Below are positions 27,825 to 37,119 of a stretch of DNA of 44,458 nucleotides, in pieces. Numbering within the stretch: the stretch's first letter is position 1; each line of letters starts with the position of its first letter. A model generated the notes under the pieces. It worked only from the letters and a program-made list of their open reading frames with translations, was not told the origin of the DNA and did not search any database. Source of the stretch: Salinivenus sp. (GTDB taxonomy: Bacteria; Bacteroidota; Rhodothermia; Rhodothermales; Salinibacteraceae); contig JAHENZ010000232.1 of assembly GCA_018609755.1 (NCBI GenBank), positions 1 to 44,458 of the forward strand. Reading direction: 5' to 3'. The position numbers and the translations under genes were made by a program.

Positions 27825-28232
27825 AGAAAGGAACGTCGACTCGTCCGGCAGAACCAGTGAAAGGGGACTTTTGGAGGCGTCGTCCGGGCCAGGAGGGGGG
27901 GGGGTTAAATGCAACGGTTTGACCAATTCACATGAGATTACTTTTGCTCGAAACGGGCCTGGTGTGTTGTTTGTCTGAACACACACGAATGTATCGTTGA
28001 ATTATCAGACGCGTTCAACGGCGAATGCTTCATAGCGTCTGTTTGCATACACAAATGGCTTTCGGGTCGAGAGGGGTCCCCCCGTGTATTCACGGAGCGC
28101 CGCAACGTTCTCCCCGTGCTCGTTGCGTCAGCAACCGGTCGTGCCTCCGTCGTCAACGAGAGGCCGTCGGTTGTCGGAATGCCCTCGCCGAAGGCTTTCG
28201 ATGTTTTTTTAAAGAACGCATATTACCTTGAG
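27825..28232. promoter_or_regulatory. Divergent intergenic region with a G10 tract and a dyad
   Basis: This 408-bp region between the phosphoesterase and the response-regulator gene has no gene. It contains a run of ten G (27895-27904), a possible slippage site about 70 bp upstream of the phosphoesterase start. It also has a dyad CGTTGAA-N12-TTCAACG at 27995-28020, which could be a regulator site. A T7 run lies at about 28204-28210, just before the response-regulator gene. Confidence 0.4.
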
Positions 28233-28931
28233 ATGAAGCTCATTTTGCTTGTCGAAGATGACGAAAAACTGGCCCAGACATTAGAGAAGGGATTGACGAA
28301 GAACGATCCCTACCGGGTGCACCACGTGACGAGTGCTGAGGAGGCACTTGTAAAGGCCGCTTCCCATCGGTACGACGCGATGGTGGTGGACTGGCTGCTC
28401 CCAGAGATGAATGGGCCTGAACTCATTGAAGAGCTACGCGAGGAGGGATACACGACCCCGATCATGATGCTTACCGTCCGCGACAGTGTGGACGATCGGG
28501 TGAAGGGGTTGGAGAGCGGAGCCGACGATTATCTCACGAAACCCTTTGAGATGAAGGAGGTGAAGGCCCGCGTCCGTGCCCTACTGCGACGTCCCGCAGA
28601 ATGGACGACGCTCGATGAGATTTCGACGGGTCCGCTCACTGTCAACTCGGCGCGACAGGAGGCCCACGTCAATGGGTACGAGCTCGATCTCCGGAAGAAG
28701 GAGTTCGATCTTCTGCGTCTGTTGGCCGATCAAGAGCCGAACGTCGTCTCGCGCTCCACGATTGCCGAGCGGGTGTGGGGGTCGGATTACGTCTCGGACA
28801 ACTCGATTGACGTGACCGTCTCAGGCCTGCGGAAAAAGCTCGAGGGGGCGATGCACGAAGAGGAGGGAATGCGGCTCGAGACGGTTCGTGGCGTTGGGTA
28901 CCGGTTGAAGGTGGACGAAGAGCCTGAATAG
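28233..28931 (+). CDS. OmpR/PhoB-family response regulator, orphan
   Basis: The protein has 232 residues. The receiver domain (1-120) has the acidic pair Asp9-Asp10 in LLVEDDEKL, the phospho-acceptor Asp53 in MVVDWLLPEMNG, Thr81 in LTVRD, and Lys103 in DYLTKPFE, so it should be phosphorylatable. The C-terminal winged helix (about 130-228) contains LDLRKKEFDLLRLLADQEPNVVSRSTIAERVWG and SNSIDVTVSGLRKKL-type recognition sequence (here DNSIDVTVSGLRKKL), ending with VRGVGYRLK. No histidine kinase gene adjoins it, so the partner is elsewhere. It is convergent with the PYP gene; a link to light signalling is possible but unproven. The ATG at 28233 directly starts the first receiver strand. Confidence 0.93.
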   Translation: MKLILLVEDDEKLAQTLEKGLTKNDPYRVHHVTSAEEALVKAASHRYDAMVVDWLLPEMNGPELIEELREEGYTTPIMMLTVRDSVDDRVKGLESGADDYLTKPFEMKEVKARVRALLRRPAEWTTLDEISTGPLTVNSARQEAHVNGYELDLRKKEFDLLRLLADQEPNVVSRSTIAERVWGSDYVSDNSIDVTVSGLRKKLEGAMHEEEGMRLETVRGVGYRLKVDEEPE

Positions 28932-29145: not shown

Positions 29146-29628
29146 CTACCGTTCGTGAATGAGAATCCAGTTCTGACCCGCCTCGTCCCGGTACAGGCGG
29201 ATGTCCACGAGGGTCGGTCGCATCTTGTACGTGAACGTGTATGTAAAACGTTCGTCGAGCTCTCCTTCCTGAATGCCGTTCCTGAACCGCCCCAGAAAGA
29301 GGTGATTGTTGCTACAGGGGGCCAGCTCAGTGAAAAAGTTTTGTCCCACGGCTTCCGACGGCTCTACCCCGCTGAGCTCCGATTCACAGCGGTTGTAAAA
29401 CTGGACGATGCCGTCGTCATCCAGCCGAATGATGCCGAAGGCCGCATTGTTGAGCTCTTCTTCGCTGGCGTGGCGGAGTTGCTCCCCGATGCTCTCTGTG
29501 TCGAATTGGAGGGCTGCAGCTGACTCATCCTCTTCCTCGTCGTTCGGGATGGGTACGTCGGACTTCGGCCGAGGAGTCAGCTCACTGCCTTGGAGGAAGG
29601 AATGGAGGTTATCGGAGGACGAGTCCAT
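29146..29628 (-). CDS. pyp: Photoactive yellow protein (blue-light photoreceptor)
   Basis: The protein has 160 residues, 35 more than Halorhodospira PYP (125). It aligns over the whole PAS domain: AAFGIIRLDDDGIVQFYN, GQNFFTELAPCSNNHLFLGRF and FTYTFTYKMRPTLVDIRLY. The chromophore-site residues are conserved: Tyr78 (Tyr42 of Halorhodospira), Glu82 (Glu46), and Cys105 (Cys69, which binds p-coumaric acid). Thr50 is Ser, and Arg52 is Val. It should therefore be photoactive if coumarate is supplied. The acidic N-terminal extension (DEEEDESAAA) fits the extended PYP reported from Salinibacter ruber. No tyrosine ammonia-lyase or coumarate ligase gene is in the window. The ATG at 29628 is chosen over an upstream open frame that is unlike PYP. 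Confidence 0.95.
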   Translation of the reverse strand: MDSSSDNLHSFLQGSELTPRPKSDVPIPNDEEEDESAAALQFDTESIGEQLRHASEEELNNAAFGIIRLDDDGIVQFYNRCESELSGVEPSEAVGQNFFTELAPCSNNHLFLGRFRNGIQEGELDERFTYTFTYKMRPTLVDIRLYRDEAGQNWILIHER

Positions 29629-29899
29629 AGATGGTCGTGCGATTAAAACAGGCGCATCGAGACGGGTGAGGAATGAACCCGTTTCCATTCCAACGTGTCG
29701 TGCTCCGGTGGTTGGAGTCTGGCCCAAGACCACCGGAAGGGGCGTCCGGTGTAGGAAGATTCAACATTTTCACGTTCTTTCGTCCCCGAAAGGTCCGCCC
29801 GGATCGTCTCACGGATGCTTCCCTGCCGACGATAGATCCCGTTTCCGGCGGTTGGAGGTCGGTACACATTCGACCCACATATAGATGGCATAACGCGTT

Positions 29900-32707
29900 C
29901 TACGCAGGCCGGAAGAGAAGCCAGGTGGTCTCGCCCTCAGGCGCTCTGTAGAGGTGGACCGCAAACGATTGGGGGCCATCGCCGGGACTCACGAAGGTGT
30001 AGGGGAAGCGAGCATCGATTTCGCCTCGGCGTTGGCCCTTTCGGAAGCGACCGAAGAACAGGTTGTTGTTCGTGCTGGGTGCGAGGTCGAGGAAGAAGTT
30101 TTCCCCAATCACGTCCGTTTCGTCTTCTACGTCCTGAAGTCCAGGAAGCTGAAAGGCCGCCGCATTGAGGGCAGCAACCGTCCCGTCGTCGCGAAGCTGC
30201 ACGACTCCCACGTCGAGTGCGTCGAGCTCGTCGGGCGTCATCGCGTCGAGCCGGTCCAGCGTGTCGGCCTCGACAAACGGAGAGGCTGCCTCAATGTCGA
30301 CGCCGTAGTCCGTGGACTCGGACGAACCGGAGCGGGAGGGAAGCACTTCGGGGAGAGAGGTGCCCGCCTCCGATTCGAGTACGTGAACCCCTTCCACCAC
30401 CTCCAGCACACTGTCCGTTCCCAGCTCGGCCTGCAGCCGGTCGAAGCGGCGTTCATAGGTGCGATTCTCGCGCTGGAGAGCGTCGATTTGCTTCTGTTGC
30501 GTTTCGAGCCGAGCCATCGCCTCCTGCGCGTCGTCGAAGCCGTGGTGAAGGAGCGTTTCCTTCTCCCGGTACAGCGCTTCCAGCTGGTGCTCCATACTGT
30601 TCATGGTGAGCGTATCCGCCGGGTCGCGTTCCGACGCGTCTTCGTTTTCTTCCGTAGGCGCCTCCGGAGAGGACACCGAGAGGTCGTCCGTATCGGGGGC
30701 CCAGAGCCGAGCGTCGTGGCGCTCCTCGGGATCGAGCTCTGCGTCCCGGGCGGCGTAAAGGTCGTCGAGTTGCGTTTCGAGCGTCTCCACCATCTCGATC
30801 ACGTCTGCCGCGGAAGAGACGCCGAGGGCCTGCTGTAGCTTCTGGCGCTCGGCGTAGAGAGCTTCGAGTTGCTGGAACGTGCTTTGATTTTCGCTATCGT
30901 CGATCTGAACCTCCCGGAGGGCTTCCTTGTCGTCGTAGAGGTCGTCGAGCTGCTCTTCCATGCTTTCGATCATGTCCACCGCGTCGTCGATGCTGCTCAG
31001 GCCCAACTCCTCCAGCTTTTCTTTGTCTTCGTAAAGGGTGGTAAGTTGTTCTTCCATCTGATGGGCCAACTCGGAAAGCTCTTCGGCTTCCTCACGGGTT
31101 GAGATCCCGAGAACCTCCTCGATTGCCGAGAGCCGCTCAGCAGCATTGTCCTGGTCTTCCTTCTCCGTGTACAACTCGTCGAGCTGGGTCTGCATGTTCT
31201 CGATGAGGGAAACCGCCTCTTCGGCGTCGTACCCAGCGTCAGCCAGCACCTCGTGTTCTGTCGAAAGGGTGTCGAGCTCGTCGACCAGCGTACGCACGAC
31301 CTCCGATAGGTCGTCGGCGGCCTCCGGGGTCGTGCCGGTGAGATCCACGACCCGGCGGGCGAGGGCGTCGTCCAGAGCAGCGAAGCCAGAGTCTGTTCCG
31401 GAGGGAGGCTCGCTCGGGGAAGAGGTTCCGTTGATTCGAGACGTCCCCTGCTGATAAAGATCCGCAAGCTGTGCCCCCATGCTTTCGATCATCGTGAGGG
31501 CCCCATCGACGGAGAGGCCGACCTGGTCGAGCTTTTGACGTTCCTCCTCAAGCCGTTCCAGACGCTCGGACATATTCCCAATGAGCTCGTCCAGCTCGTG
31601 GGCCTCCTCTACCGAGTGGATGCCGAGAACGTCGCCTGCCTCTTCAGGAATCGTGTCTCCGCGATCGGACAGAGCGTCGGGGGCGGGGAGGGCACTGAGC
31701 TGATCTTCGAGGGAGTGCAAGAGCGTCAGGGCGTCGTCGCTCTGCGGCTCCACCTCTTCAAATTCGACCGTCCCCTCGTAGTGTTCGACGAGGCGTTGAC
31801 CGATCCGTCGGACGGTGTCGGCCAGCGTGCGAGCCTCCGATCCCGTGGCAATGCCGAGGGCGTCCGCAGCGTCGGGGGGAAGCGTCTCCGGATCGGGTAG
31901 GCCGTCGAGTTGTGCGGCCATGCTGTGGAGCAGTTCCACTAGGTTCTCCGGGGCATCGTCGACCGCCGTGTCCTGTCCCGACGCATGGGAGCGGATGCGG
32001 TCGTGCACCTGCTTGGCAATGCGACGAAGCGCTTCGGCCTGATCAGGGGTTGAGACCCCGAGGCGATCGCGGATGACGACGGCCGCTTCGAGGACGGACG
32101 TGTCCGGGTCGGGAGTGGAGGCGTCCTCCGTTTCCGGCTCCTCCTGATCTTGCTCCGCACGAAGCTGGTCGCGTTCACGCTCAAGGGCGTCGCGCTCCTC
32201 TCGGAGCCGGTCGAGCTCCGCAAGGGCCTCCTCGGCCGTTTCGTGCCCCGCCTGCATGAGCTGCTCCTTTTCCTGATAGAGATCCTCCAGCCGCCGATTG
32301 AGCCGCTGGATTCGCTCCCGCGCCTCATCCATCGTCGCGGCGTCCAGCGCATCGAGCAGCTGCCCGGCCTTCTGGTGGAGGTCCCGGAAGGCACTGTCTA
32401 CGTCCTCGTCCCCTTCCAGCCGTTCGGCCAGGGTTGCATTGCGCTCCCGCAACTTTTCCATCTTCTCATTCATCTCCTGGAAAACGTTCTCCACCTCGCT
32501 GATAGTGACGAGGCCTTCCTCCTGGCGATTGCCTTCGTCGAGCTGGTTCATGTGGCGCATCAAGGTGCGCACACGCGACAGGACCTCCTCCGGGTCCGAC
32601 GTGTCGAGCTCGTCGCAGAGGGTGTTCCACTGTTGGACGTACCAGTCGAGATCGTGGTCGGGAGACGACGGGTTAGAAGTAGGGTCCGAATCGCTTGCGT
32701 CAGCCAT
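29900..32707 (-). CDS. Acidic coiled-coil repeat protein with C-terminal degenerate PYP-like PAS domain
   Basis: The protein has 935 residues and is strongly acidic. Residues from about 20 to 780 are mostly helical and coiled-coil, with about ten imperfect repeats of the form M-E-x-Q-L-x-x-L-Y-x-x-K-E-x-L (for example SMEEQLDDLYDDKEAL, NMQTQLDELYTEKED, MVETLETQLDDLYAARD, SMEHQLEALYREKETL). Residues 823-935 form a PYP-type PAS domain: VGVVQLRDDGTVAALNAAAF, GENFFLDLAPSTNNNLFFGRFRKG and RFPYTFVSPGDGP. The Cys that binds the chromophore is Ser878 here, Tyr42 is Leu and Glu46 is Ala, so it should bind no coumarate. It lies 271 bp upstream of the true PYP gene on the same strand and is probably coexpressed. 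The ATG at 32707 precedes a typical acidic start. No known named family is recognised for the repeats; a scaffold or signalling role is inference. Confidence 0.85.
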   Translation of the reverse strand: MADASDSDPTSNPSSPDHDLDWYVQQWNTLCDELDTSDPEEVLSRVRTLMRHMNQLDEGNRQEEGLVTISEVENVFQEMNEKMEKLRERNATLAERLEGDEDVDSAFRDLHQKAGQLLDALDAATMDEARERIQRLNRRLEDLYQEKEQLMQAGHETAEEALAELDRLREERDALERERDQLRAEQDQEEPETEDASTPDPDTSVLEAAVVIRDRLGVSTPDQAEALRRIAKQVHDRIRSHASGQDTAVDDAPENLVELLHSMAAQLDGLPDPETLPPDAADALGIATGSEARTLADTVRRIGQRLVEHYEGTVEFEEVEPQSDDALTLLHSLEDQLSALPAPDALSDRGDTIPEEAGDVLGIHSVEEAHELDELIGNMSERLERLEEERQKLDQVGLSVDGALTMIESMGAQLADLYQQGTSRINGTSSPSEPPSGTDSGFAALDDALARRVVDLTGTTPEAADDLSEVVRTLVDELDTLSTEHEVLADAGYDAEEAVSLIENMQTQLDELYTEKEDQDNAAERLSAIEEVLGISTREEAEELSELAHQMEEQLTTLYEDKEKLEELGLSSIDDAVDMIESMEEQLDDLYDDKEALREVQIDDSENQSTFQQLEALYAERQKLQQALGVSSAADVIEMVETLETQLDDLYAARDAELDPEERHDARLWAPDTDDLSVSSPEAPTEENEDASERDPADTLTMNSMEHQLEALYREKETLLHHGFDDAQEAMARLETQQKQIDALQRENRTYERRFDRLQAELGTDSVLEVVEGVHVLESEAGTSLPEVLPSRSGSSESTDYGVDIEAASPFVEADTLDRLDAMTPDELDALDVGVVQLRDDGTVAALNAAAFQLPGLQDVEDETDVIGENFFLDLAPSTNNNLFFGRFRKGQRRGEIDARFPYTFVSPGDGPQSFAVHLYRAPEGETTWLLFRPA

Positions 32708-32816: not shown

Positions 32817-33047
32817 TACCATCGGCCCGTGGGAGTCGATCCGTAGAATGAGCCCAGAAAGGCCGACCCCTGTCCTTGGGGGGAGGGGACCTGCGTGTCA
32901 AACATCCGGTTCCCAGATGTAACCAAATCGGTATGATAGAACTGATTCGGCGTGAGTGGCGAATCCATCCGACGAGGGGGGCGATAGAAAGATGCAGTAT
33001 TTGGCTTGGGCTACGCCAGGCGTCATTTCAGATTACTTCAAATTCTG

Positions 33048-33509
33048 ATGAGCACAAGCACACTTCACACGGAGGAGCAGACCGACACGGTGGAATCTGA
33101 CGAATCTGTCCATACCCTTCACGATCGCATTGAGGATGCCCTCCGCGGCTCTCTCGACACGCAGTGGGAACAGGTGCTCGACGAGTGGACGAGCGCTGCG
33201 CCGTCGGAGCGAAAAGCGGTCCGAGCGTACGTCTCAGGACTCCGAAATCGTATTCTTCGATCGCTTCTCGACATTGACACTGAAGATGAACTGCAGCGGG
33301 GGCTTGCAACGCAGTACATCGAGATGAAGTGCCACTGGACCATGCTGAACACGCAAATTCAGCATCAGACAGCCCGCGACGGGGAGGCGCAAGAAGATCT
33401 CATCTACCGTGCTACGTGCGTGAGTTTAATCATTCAGAGTCTGGAGCCGCTCCTCAGCCAAGAGCGCATTGACAACCTGACGGCTTTTCTCGCGGAGCCG
33501 CTGCAGTAG
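33048..33509 (+). CDS. Conserved-looking helical protein of unknown function
   Basis: The protein has 153 residues. It has an acidic N-terminus (HTEEQTDTVESDESV) and predicted helices throughout, with no signal peptide or membrane segment. Segments such as SERKAVRAYVSGLRNRILRSLLD and RATCVSLIIQSLEPLLSQERIDNL look like folded, soluble helical protein rather than a chance frame, and codon use is typical of the neighbourhood. It diverges from the coiled-coil PYP-like gene, sharing an intergenic region with a dyad. I do not recognise the family. The ATG at 33048 was chosen because the upstream extension is not protein-like. Confidence 0.7.
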   Translation: MSTSTLHTEEQTDTVESDESVHTLHDRIEDALRGSLDTQWEQVLDEWTSAAPSERKAVRAYVSGLRNRILRSLLDIDTEDELQRGLATQYIEMKCHWTMLNTQIQHQTARDGEAQEDLIYRATCVSLIIQSLEPLLSQERIDNLTAFLAEPLQ

Positions 33510-33766
33510 GGTTCAAGTGTGGAATGGAGCGGGAAAGCGTGGGGGAGAATGGAGGGGGTTCCTCAACTTGAGACTTCCCTCGACAGTCGAATCTTCGAGT
33601 CTTCGACTCGATCAGAGCAACGCACGCTCGTCTCTTCTTCCATTCGTGGGAGTCGTTTTGTAGATTCCGCGTCGGTGCCCCACGCGGGGCTCATGCGTCG
33701 ACTGTTTTGCTTTGCGTGGGGGGATGGAGGCTGCACTTCTCTTTCGGACGAAGGATCGACGCTGGT

Positions 33767-34555
33767 ATGGATTGGATTTCGAGCCCGGAAGCCTGGATTG
33801 CGCTCGGCGCCCTCACGCTGCTGGAGATCGTGCTGGGCATCGACAACATCGTGTTCATTTCTATCCTGTCGAATAAACTGCCAGCCGATCAGCAGCCGCT
33901 GGCTCGGCGTGTGGGGCTCGGCTTAGCTCTTGGTGGGCGCATTCTGCTCCTGCTGTCCATCAACTGGATTATGACGCTCACCGCTCCGCTCTTCGAAGTG
34001 TTCACGCATGCGGTGAGTGGCCGTGACCTCATCCTGCTCGTCGGCGGGCTTTTTCTCATCGGCAAGGCGACCACCGAGATTCACGAAAAGCTAGAGGGGG
34101 ACGACGGGGACACGAAAGCAGCGGCGACGGTGACCTTTGTCGGGGTGATTACCCAGATTTTTCTGCTGGACATGGTGTTTTCGCTGGATTCGGTGATTAC
34201 CGCTGTGGGAATGGCCGACGACGTGATGGTTATGATCATTGCCGTGACCATCGCCATCGTGATCATGATGGTGTCGGCCGAGGGCATTGCCGACTTCATC
34301 GCCGCCCACCCGACCGTCAAGATGCTGGCGCTCAGCTTCCTCCTGCTCATTGGCGTAATGCTCGTGGCCGAGGGAATGGGGCAGCACATTCCGAAGGGGT
34401 ACATCTACTCGGCGATGGCCTTCTCGCTGATCGTGGAGATGCTGAATCTGCGGGCCGTTCGGGTTGATGAAGAGGAGGAAGAGAAAACGGAGCCGGTTCA
34501 TCTCCACAACCCAAGGCTCCAGCGGGCGGTGAAGCGAGCGGTTCAGGAAGATTGA
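33767..34555 (+). CDS. TerC-family integral membrane protein
   Basis: The protein has 262 residues and about seven or eight membrane segments. TerC motifs: ALTLLEIVLGIDNIVFISIL at the N-terminus with the conserved acidic residues, GGLFLIGKATTEIHEKLE, and QIFLLDMVFSLDSVITAVGM, with the repeated D-x-x-x-S pattern. Family members are linked to tellurite resistance and to export of manganese or other metals. The C-terminus is acidic and cytoplasmic. It stands alone, and I see no yybP-ykoY-like manganese riboswitch upstream. The ATG at 33767 starts directly at the usual N-terminal helix (MDWISSPEAW). Confidence 0.93.
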   Translation: MDWISSPEAWIALGALTLLEIVLGIDNIVFISILSNKLPADQQPLARRVGLGLALGGRILLLLSINWIMTLTAPLFEVFTHAVSGRDLILLVGGLFLIGKATTEIHEKLEGDDGDTKAAATVTFVGVITQIFLLDMVFSLDSVITAVGMADDVMVMIIAVTIAIVIMMVSAEGIADFIAAHPTVKMLALSFLLLIGVMLVAEGMGQHIPKGYIYSAMAFSLIVEMLNLRAVRVDEEEEEKTEPVHLHNPRLQRAVKRAVQED

Positions 34556-35479: not shown

Positions 35480-37024
35480 TTACAGCGTCCCCTTTTTCGT
35501 CCGGGTTCGCACCTCTTCCACCCGCTCGGCTATGGCGTCCAGCTCTTCCTCCGACTTCCGCCGGACGTTTGCCAACTGGAAGTTCATGCGTGGGTTGTCG
35601 GCGAAGGTGTCCTGATGGCGATTCAGGAAGTCCCAGTAAAGCGACGTGAACGGGCAGGCATTCTCGCCGGTGGCCGCGTCGGGGTCGTAGCGGCAGTGCG
35701 AGCAGTAGTTGCTCATCCGGTTGACGTACTTTCCGGAGGCGGTATAGGGCTTCGTGCCCACGATGCCCCCGTCGGCGTAGAGTGCCATGCCGATCATGTT
35801 CGGGGCCGAGACCCACTCCCAGGCGTCCACGTACATCGCCTCGTGCCAGGCGTTCATCTGCTCCGGATCCACCCCGTAGAGGAGCCCAAAGAGACCGATC
35901 ACCATGAGGCGCGGGATGTGATGGGTGTATCCGTGCGCCACAGCTTGTCCTACGCTTTCGCGCAAGCAGAGCATGTCAGTGTCGCCCGTCCAGTAAAATT
36001 CCGGCAGGTCATGTGTGGCGTCGAGGGCATTCGTGCCGACGTACTCAGGGGCGTAGTGCCAGTACACCCCCCGTACGAACTCGCGCCAGCCGAGAATCTG
36101 CCGTACGAATCCTTCCACGGCGTTGATGGGGGCATGGCCGTCGTGATACGCCGCTTCGGCCCGTTCGAGGGCGAGGCGCGGATCGAGGAGCTTCAGGTTG
36201 AGCGCGGCCGAGAGGCGAGAGTGGTAGAGAAAGGGGCGCCCGGTCCACATCGCATCCTGGTAGGTGCCGAAGTGCGGCAGGCGATGCTCGATGAAATCGT
36301 CCAGGGCCGCCTCGGCCTGTGCGGGGGTGACCGGCCATCGAAAGTGGTCGAGATCGCCGGGGGCGTCGGCACACTCCGTTCGGACGAGGTCCAGAACGGA
36401 TCGCGTGGTGTCGTCTCGGTCAATGGACGGTCCCTCGGGGATCATGCCGGGCCCGTCCCGGCCAAACGACTCGCGATTATCGTCGTCAAAATTCCAGGCG
36501 CCACCTACGGGGTCCCCGTCGTCGGTCACCAGCACGTCGTACGCCCGGCGCTGTTCGCGGTAGAAATATTCGAGCGTCAGCTCCTTCCGATCGGCGGCCC
36601 AGGCGTCGAACGTATCGTGGGTCACCAGGAAGTGCCGATCCGCATGTACCTCCAGGGGTACGTTGGCATTCTCGCAAACGTCTTCGATCGCTTGCAGGAG
36701 ACTATATCGTCCCGGTTCGGTCACACAGACACGATCGGGCTGGTGCTCGGCGATCTGCCGTCGCAGAAACGCGGCCGCGTCGTCGCTTCGCTCCGGGGCG
36801 TCGGCGGTTTCATAGTGAACACGCCATCCCTGCGCACGGAGGTCGTCGCGAAAGTGGCGCATGGCCGCCCAGTTGAGGGCGAGGCGTTGCTTGTGCTCTG
36901 GAAATGGCCCTCGGTTCACGTCCACTTCCGTCATGGCCACGGCGTCTCGGGACGGGTCGGCGTCGTCAAGCATCGCCGCGTGGCGGTCGAGCTGGTCCCG
37001 AAGGAGGAAGAGCAGGCGGCGCAT
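35480..37024 (-). CDS. Iron-sulfur bacterial cryptochrome/photolyase (FeS-BCP, DPRP family)
   Basis: The protein has 514 residues, close to Agrobacterium PhrB (about 507). The start MRRLLFLLRDQLDRHAAML fits the family's N-terminal domain. The C-terminal catalytic half has FLYHSRLSAALNLKLL, FVRQILGWREFVRGVYW and GKYVNRMSNYCSHCRY. Cysteines lie in the PhrB spacing: CSHC (3 apart), the next 13 on (ENACPF), and another 88 residues before the first (MLCLRES); these four ligate a 4Fe-4S cluster in PhrB. Family members repair (6-4) photoproducts using FAD and a lumazine antenna. The SDR gene ends 95 bp upstream on the same strand, so the two may be cotranscribed. The ATG at 37024 gives the family's normal N-terminus. 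Confidence 0.93.
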   Translation of the reverse strand: MRRLLFLLRDQLDRHAAMLDDADPSRDAVAMTEVDVNRGPFPEHKQRLALNWAAMRHFRDDLRAQGWRVHYETADAPERSDDAAAFLRRQIAEHQPDRVCVTEPGRYSLLQAIEDVCENANVPLEVHADRHFLVTHDTFDAWAADRKELTLEYFYREQRRAYDVLVTDDGDPVGGAWNFDDDNRESFGRDGPGMIPEGPSIDRDDTTRSVLDLVRTECADAPGDLDHFRWPVTPAQAEAALDDFIEHRLPHFGTYQDAMWTGRPFLYHSRLSAALNLKLLDPRLALERAEAAYHDGHAPINAVEGFVRQILGWREFVRGVYWHYAPEYVGTNALDATHDLPEFYWTGDTDMLCLRESVGQAVAHGYTHHIPRLMVIGLFGLLYGVDPEQMNAWHEAMYVDAWEWVSAPNMIGMALYADGGIVGTKPYTASGKYVNRMSNYCSHCRYDPDAATGENACPFTSLYWDFLNRHQDTFADNPRMNFQLANVRRKSEEELDAIAERVEEVRTRTKKGTL

Positions 37025-37119
37025 AGGCGACGAGCGGTCGGTTTCCTGCGAGACAAATTCCAGAGCCTCCAGCATGAGGACGATGGATCCTCCATCGGAG
37101 AGCACCCACGCCCCCAAAT

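Follow-up and report, generated by a model that had tools for sequence, protein, structure and literature searches.

PYP is among the most studied photoreceptors in biophysics, and a recent paper still describes the signalling partner of the model protein as unidentified (PMC13250908). The main-text parts of a 2025 survey likewise name the PYP signal transduction chain as an important gap, and state that only homologues containing Cys69 were taken (Dohmen et al. 2025, PMC12826048). Cys69-substituted PYPs, together with clade B PYPs that adjoin chemoreceptors, are reported in the main-text parts of a further study (PMC9664959), and the binding of Ppr to CheW provides an independent link between PYP and Che proteins (PMC2993699). 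The helical-repeat partner and the two families, R and S, that we describe below are not named in the main-text parts of PMC12826048, and the scaffold, R and S are absent from those of PMC9664959. Some such neighbours may appear in earlier PYP surveys under the label of hypothetical proteins, and some of the scaffold domains may fall within the Cys69-substituted 'PYP_like' branch of PMC9664959. Among the main texts of open papers searched, none describes R, S or the scaffold, and their novelty is provisional.

The DNA analysed here, termed the window, is a stretch of 44,458 nt from Salinivenus sp. (contig JAHENZ010000232.1) in which a PYP gene follows a gene encoding a large protein that we call the scaffold. 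Its relevant features are as follows.

29900..32707, minus strand: scaffold gene, 935 aa, comprising a head, about 11 helical repeats and a C-terminal light-blind PYP domain
30503..32599, minus strand: repeat region (R family), approximately residues 37-735, a helical repeat of about 33 aa with the core EQLxxLYxEKE
29903..30265, minus strand: light-blind PYP domain, residues 815-935, in which Leu847, Ala851, Pro855 and Ser878 replace Tyr42, Glu46, Thr50 and Cys69
29146..29733, minus strand: true PYP, likely start ATG 29628, with Tyr42, Glu46 and Cys69 present and Ser50
28116..28931, plus strand: OmpR-type response regulator (Pfam Response_reg and Trans_reg_C), convergent with PYP
33006..33509, plus strand: S protein, small and helical, divergent from the scaffold, with invariant W and N in ELKxxWxxLNxQ
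33707..34555, plus strand: TerC-family membrane protein (Pfam TerC), regularly found beside S at type I loci

The likely PYP start lies 271 nt past the scaffold stop on the same strand, and all three chromophore residues are kept, in agreement with a first-pass annotation of this DNA that had reported an intact PYP gene at this position. Neither a kinase in the part of the window surrounding the scaffold and PYP genes nor a Che gene near the window's PYP was identified. A deoxyribodipyrimidine photolyase-related protein is encoded at 35480-37117, about 2 kb beyond S, and such a gene also occurs near the type I locus of the relative G009.

A scaffold protein ending in a light-blind PYP domain

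Scaffold residues 815-932 match solved PYPs with an E value of 2e-15 and contain both GENFFLDLAP and NNLFFGRF, bearing out the overall PYP pattern that had been read from the sequence at first pass. Substitutions were scored by alignment against H. halophila PYP, which likewise confirmed the reported losses, with Ser878, Leu847 and Ala851 standing in for Cys69, Tyr42 and Glu46; across the order, Cys69 is absent from 27 of 27 aligned scaffold domains. An AlphaFold model of the 132-aa domain has a pLDDT of 91.6, and when solved chains were drawn from Foldseek's top thousand and re-aligned, PYP chains led with Z scores of 18-19 (maximum 19.0), the first PAS chain other than a PYP following at 11.8. 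By this model the C-terminal domain, whose PAS character the first-pass annotation had left to be checked, has a real PYP/PAS fold. By fold and sequence homology the domain belongs with the PYP family; by its residues it departs from it, lacking Cys69, which carries the p-coumaric acid thioester, as well as Tyr42 (or Phe) and Glu46 (or Gln). It scores 72 bits against the TIGR02373 photo_yellow model, for which the cutoff is 143 and the order's own true PYPs reach only 110-121, also below the cutoff.

The positions kept in PYPs and blind domains alike include Phe62, Phe63, Pro68, Phe75, Gly77, Phe79, Phe92, Tyr94 and Trp119, whereas the blind domains have not retained the pocket residues or the 98-103 loop, all of which show little or no variation among PYPs of the order. 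The pocket changes are consistent across scaffolds, with a small or apolar residue at 42 (Ala, Leu, Val or Ile), Ala at 46 and Pro at 50. Consistently altered pocket positions around a conserved core might be expected of a domain repurposed to bind another ligand, or to sense redox, salt or temperature, while sharing just an operon with PYP, and new sensing roles have been proposed for the Cys69-less PYPs of methylobacterial Ppr in the main-text parts of PMC9664959. Such a sensor is nevertheless quite unlikely, the domain being found solely where PYP occurs. Moreover, residue 69 is variable (S, G, A or D), and the aligned scaffold domains have not gained any invariant polar residue in the pocket, so that loss of pocket function fits better than acquisition of a new function.

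Relative to the closest relative, dN/dS is about 0.05 for the blind domain and about 0.04 for PYP (with dS saturated), values from which we conclude that chance is excluded and that the blind domain is maintained by purifying selection. The same value weighs against regarding the domain as a neutral passenger, that is, a decaying PYP duplicate on a structural protein that is retained through linkage only. In favour of decay, the domains of type II scaffolds (defined below) evolve faster than PYP (dN 0.25 vs 0.05) and the blind-domain scaffold has been lost in the S. ruber clade; but dN/dS is about 0.05 for the type I domains, all 27 scaffold domains have retained both an open reading frame and the conserved core positions of PYP, and co-occurrence extends over three families, which makes this explanation highly improbable.

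A repeat profile search found 11 copies of the repeat in the scaffold (consensus GVSDPEEALEMIESMEEQLEDLYEEREALAEAG), in line with the roughly ten repeats proposed at first pass; the long coiled coil proposed with them is probably too simple a description. In the full-length AlphaFold model, which is of low confidence (pLDDT 64, pTM 0.26), the helices are many and mostly 13-40 residues in length, interrupted by short turns and disordered linkers, which suggests a series of helices separated by flexible breaks rather than a single rod. The PYP domain is well formed in this model and the repeat packing is not interpretable. Pfam returned nothing for the 935-aa protein, and neither Pfam nor NCBIfam placed the scaffold or S in a family above its curated cutoff. 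A search of the source genome found the repeat in three proteins only, each with a C-terminal PYP-like domain, and outside the window's scaffold it is confined to a second module. We define family R in this analysis as helical repeats of the type EQLxxLYxEKExLExxLGxSxxEEIIxMVRSLEEQLxxLY that lie beside PYP or are fused to it, and the window's scaffold falls within this definition. The 935-aa protein is a giant local form, the most elaborate member of this apparently undescribed family of PYP companions.

Scaffold-PYP pairs and their loci within the order

The order was represented by 114 genomes, 21 with PYP and 93 without. The repeat family is present in 21 of 21 PYP genomes, 15 times with the blind domain and 6 times as a mini form of about 97 aa, and in 0 of 93 PYP-less genomes (Fisher 2e-23 over the 114 genomes, shared ancestry not being corrected for). 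Within the taxonomic family alone the corresponding counts are 19 of 19 and 0 of 8, several of these eight genomes being incomplete. S was found in 21 of 21 PYP genomes and in 1 of the 93 PYP-less ones. The scaffold very probably belongs to the PYP pathway, and the idea that it is a partner of PYP is strongly supported by genetics.

Twenty-two scaffold-to-PYP pairs are distributed over three families of the order, always on the same strand with the scaffold upstream, and with a gap of about 3-290 nt in nearly all of them. Cys69 and Glu46 are preserved in 34 of 34 stand-alone PYPs of the order, and position 42 is either Tyr or Phe. In a phylogenetic tree all scaffold domains group together in a single clade (99/97), and the two outlying families pair as sisters in the PYP part and in the scaffold part alike, as joint inheritance predicts; because both of these relationships are observed, we consider the pair and its gene order to be old. 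When residues were matched between scaffolds and their own partner PYPs, no bias emerged overall (130 vs 119), and gene conversion between PYP and the blind domain as a general cause of their similarity was rejected on this ground. Own-partner matches at positions 96 (14:0) and 66 (12:4), which were picked post hoc, may reflect one or two events. At three loci (L050, L056 and L057) the scaffold has no adjacent PYP, and PYP is encoded elsewhere in the same genomes.

The type I locus, to which the window's belongs, comprises a long scaffold, one or two PYPs, the divergent S gene and often TerC and the OmpR-type regulator. Of the 10 type I loci with a scaffold-PYP pair, 7 retain the regulator; in scaffold-less type I loci it was not recognised as a neighbour. 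The type II locus contains a shorter scaffold, PYP, pCL, TAL and DUF427, in operons with chromophore enzymes. The second module of the source genome (G000) consists of a scaffold (551 aa), PYP, a second scaffold (356 aa), a p-coumarate-CoA ligase-like enzyme and an aromatic amino acid lyase. Although the assembly of G000 is split into 328 contigs, its relative G009 (10 contigs) likewise carries both modules, there on a single contig. The gene order in G084, from the third family, is S, scaffold, PYP and a fused pCL-TAL, which may resemble the ancestral arrangement.

Several further arrangements were observed at these and related loci. A shorter second scaffold with a Cys-less PYP domain directly follows PYP at L006:8536-9606 and L047:9059-10231, giving operons in which a single true PYP is accompanied by two blind copies. 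In G016 and G022 (L058:9145-13829 and L063:3165-7838) the type II and type I modules are separated by a multi-PAS histidine kinase and an OmpR-type regulator, a candidate output system. At L142:5807-8878, directly downstream of PYP, a single protein of 1023 aa combines an AMP-binding ligase with an aromatic amino acid lyase and is predicted to be a one-protein route to p-coumaroyl-CoA. In the Salinibacteraceae PYPs (window 29146-29628 and orthologues), the N-terminus is extended by an acidic stretch that includes a short conserved motif, for example DLYSFL or YPFLD; this candidate binding peptide is absent in the outlying genomes G056 and G084.

The co-occurrence of scaffold and PYP, named at first pass as a check on the pairing, holds as far as the linkage of the two genes in three families is concerned, but not for six genomes of the S. 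ruber clade, which have PYP without the blind domain and keep the mini form. The latter is an ORF of about 97 aa that aligns with the scaffold head and one repeat and carries no blind PYP.

L175:7475-7930, L176:7787-8080, L177:5674-6330, L178:6095-6397, L179:6222-6521 and L181:5059-5373: mini scaffold ORFs of the S. ruber clade

These ORFs sit at the type II site, adjoining pCL and, where the contig reaches, PGM, with PYP at another locus, and dN/dS, where it could be measured, is about 0.08-0.11. In S. ruber, the member of the group that has been studied, the blind-domain scaffold would not have come to light, because its clade has lost it and the mini form lies elsewhere. In three of the six scaffold-less genomes (G005, G006 and G007) the PYP-type TAL is missing, with a lyase of about 36% or none found, and pCL is present.

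The proximity of the chromophore enzymes raises the alternative of a chromophore-loading platform, in which the scaffold and R would keep apo-PYP close to p-coumaroyl-CoA ligase (pCL) and TAL for efficient loading, with the blind domain as a non-loadable mimic that positions the enzyme. Type II scaffolds share operons with both enzymes, the gene immediately downstream of the second scaffold (356/390 aa) is pCL, the S. ruber-clade mini form is located between PGM and pCL even though PYP is elsewhere, and the pCL-TAL fusion of G084 follows PYP. We nevertheless judge a loading role unlikely, since neither pCL nor TAL is found near the scaffold in type I loci, the window's included, and further evidence, given below, points to signalling.

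Families R and S beyond the order

A cross-phylum scan queried with the order's true PYPs (clade B-like motifs, to which its results are limited) yielded PYP loci from Ignavibacteria, Kapaibacteria, Leptospiraceae, Bdellovibrionota, Planctomycetota, Fimbriimonadaceae, Sericytochromatia and others. None of these loci from other phyla contains a neighbouring Cys-less PYP. In 28 of 29 of them (8,460 ORFs, 388 kb), profiles of R and/or S give matches, and only near PYP. The helical, coiled-coil-like composition of R could inflate its profile matches; that the matches are positionally specific to PYP argues against such an effect.

Outside the order, R is usually encoded on its own beside PYP, as a protein of about 60-145 aa, and these short proteins have in common the full motif given above. 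In L133, R forms the N-terminal part of a fusion with a true PYP (E 4e-8), the domain order being that of the scaffold, and weaker matches (E 1e-2 to 1e-4) indicate possible N-terminal fusions of this kind in L128, L131, L134 and L140. Of 395 genomes sampled across the phylum, R was detected in 8, each of which also has PYP; this count leaves out three S. ruber-type mini forms, which need a scaffold-head query. S was detected in 14 of the sampled genomes, 12 of them with PYP. For a divergent PYP in G443, neither R nor S was found. S tracks PYP at least as well as the scaffold does, and is probably as important. At a locus from a Phycisphaerales MAG (L137:5188-7395), two PYP genes, two R genes and a single S gene follow one another, one of the PYPs having Val at 42 and Gln at 46 with Cys69 kept.

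Beyond the order, S occurs as a stand-alone protein, fused to R (L123), in proteins with a CheW-like domain (L125 and L130), and as the C-terminus of Hpt and HATPase_c proteins, some with CheW (L128, L131, L132, L134, L135, L138 and L140); in Bdellovibrionota, it is fused to a CheA-like kinase beside PYP. Because S is fused to CheA-like kinases, it is the likeliest output side of the system. These fusions, along with the scaffold-linked response regulator, favour signalling over chromophore loading, as does the fact that R also adjoins PYP where the locus has no pCL match (L112, L119-L121, L124, L129 and L141, some on short contigs). A PDB sequence search with the S profile gave only weak, probably chance matches, the best to triosephosphate isomerase (E 0.014).

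These distributions also bear on the possibility that the blind domain is a decoy or negative regulator, titrating PYP or its effector in the dark and thereby lowering sensitivity. A homologous domain incapable of activation, encoded adjacent to PYP on one strand, would suit that role, but it leaves the 10-16 repeats, the mini form without a blind domain and the occurrence of R in other phyla unexplained, and we consider it improbable.

A proposed relay and its closest known counterparts

The suggestion made at first pass, that scaffold and PYP form a new signalling module, stands with respect to fold, residue losses and linkage; it overlooked the multi-phylum R family and the second neighbour, S. 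On the comparative evidence, we regard it as about evenly balanced that the scaffold is a dedicated PYP assembly or relay protein whose blind domain docks holo-PYP. The scaffold would have descended from an R-PYP fusion such as that of L133, with the ancient companion family R expanding in this lineage from one or two repeats to about ten or more. This expanded R would carry a C-terminal PYP copy that has lost chromophore binding and may serve as a permanently PYP-shaped docking surface for holo-PYP, while the repeats could give reach and might oligomerise or bind further partners. A light-driven change in PYP would then alter the PYP-scaffold complex, and the signal would probably go with the S protein to a kinase; the light dependence of the module is the more doubtful part of this proposal. 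Direct binding, the direction of signalling and a direct role of the blind domain are what we infer from these patterns. Several observations speak against the proposal: the blind domain is dispensable, as the six genomes with PYP and a mini R lack it; R outside the order has no blind PYP; three scaffolds have no adjacent PYP; scaffolds show no overall own-partner residue bias; and the surroundings of the window's genes yielded no kinase.

More broadly, R, PYP and S could quite possibly, if still tentatively, constitute a three-part light module that feeds CheA-like/CheW-type signalling (in Salinibacteraceae, another kinase), with R and S as general partners of clade B-like PYPs and the giant blind-PYP scaffold as a lineage-specific, array-like expansion of R. 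Judged from sequence, R and S are testable candidates for the long-sought signalling partners of PYP, and their presence beside clade B-like PYPs across many phyla makes the partner gap directly accessible to experiments on binding and on deletion mutants. A photoreceptor accompanied by its own light-blind copy on a scaffold also represents a natural template for optogenetic recruitment tools.

A functional analogy exists among LOV proteins, with the difference that the White Collar LOV domain is itself light-sensitive. In the VIVID-White Collar pair of Neurospora, a small stand-alone photoreceptor acts via a homologous domain on a larger signalling protein (PMC4433212), although the domains there are LOV, not PYP. 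Among PYPs, the blind domain has the fold and core residues of clade B PYPs such as those of S. ruber and Leptospira biflexa, as described in the main-text parts of PMC9664959, and its neighbour is a true PYP; unlike them, it is without Cys69, Tyr42, Glu46 and the conserved 98-103 loop, and it is carried on a repeat scaffold. Methylobacterial Ppr likewise has a PYP domain without the chromophore cysteine within a large protein; in the main-text parts of the same study, however, these PYPs are N-terminal on phytochrome-histidine kinases, some with Y42C/S50C (PMC9664959), whereas the blind domains are C-terminal on helical repeats, have Ala, Leu, Val or Ile at 42, and are paired with an intact PYP. 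The multidomain proteins and operons in the main-text parts of Dohmen et al. (2025; PMC12826048) resemble the present ones in having PYP at a protein terminus and operons with pCL and TAL. Finally, Ppr-CheW (PMC2993699) and the Leptospira PYP encoded beside chemoreceptors (main-text parts of PMC9664959) also tie PYP family members to chemotaxis-type signalling, but the link described here runs via an undescribed S domain that other lineages fuse to CheA-like or CheW proteins.
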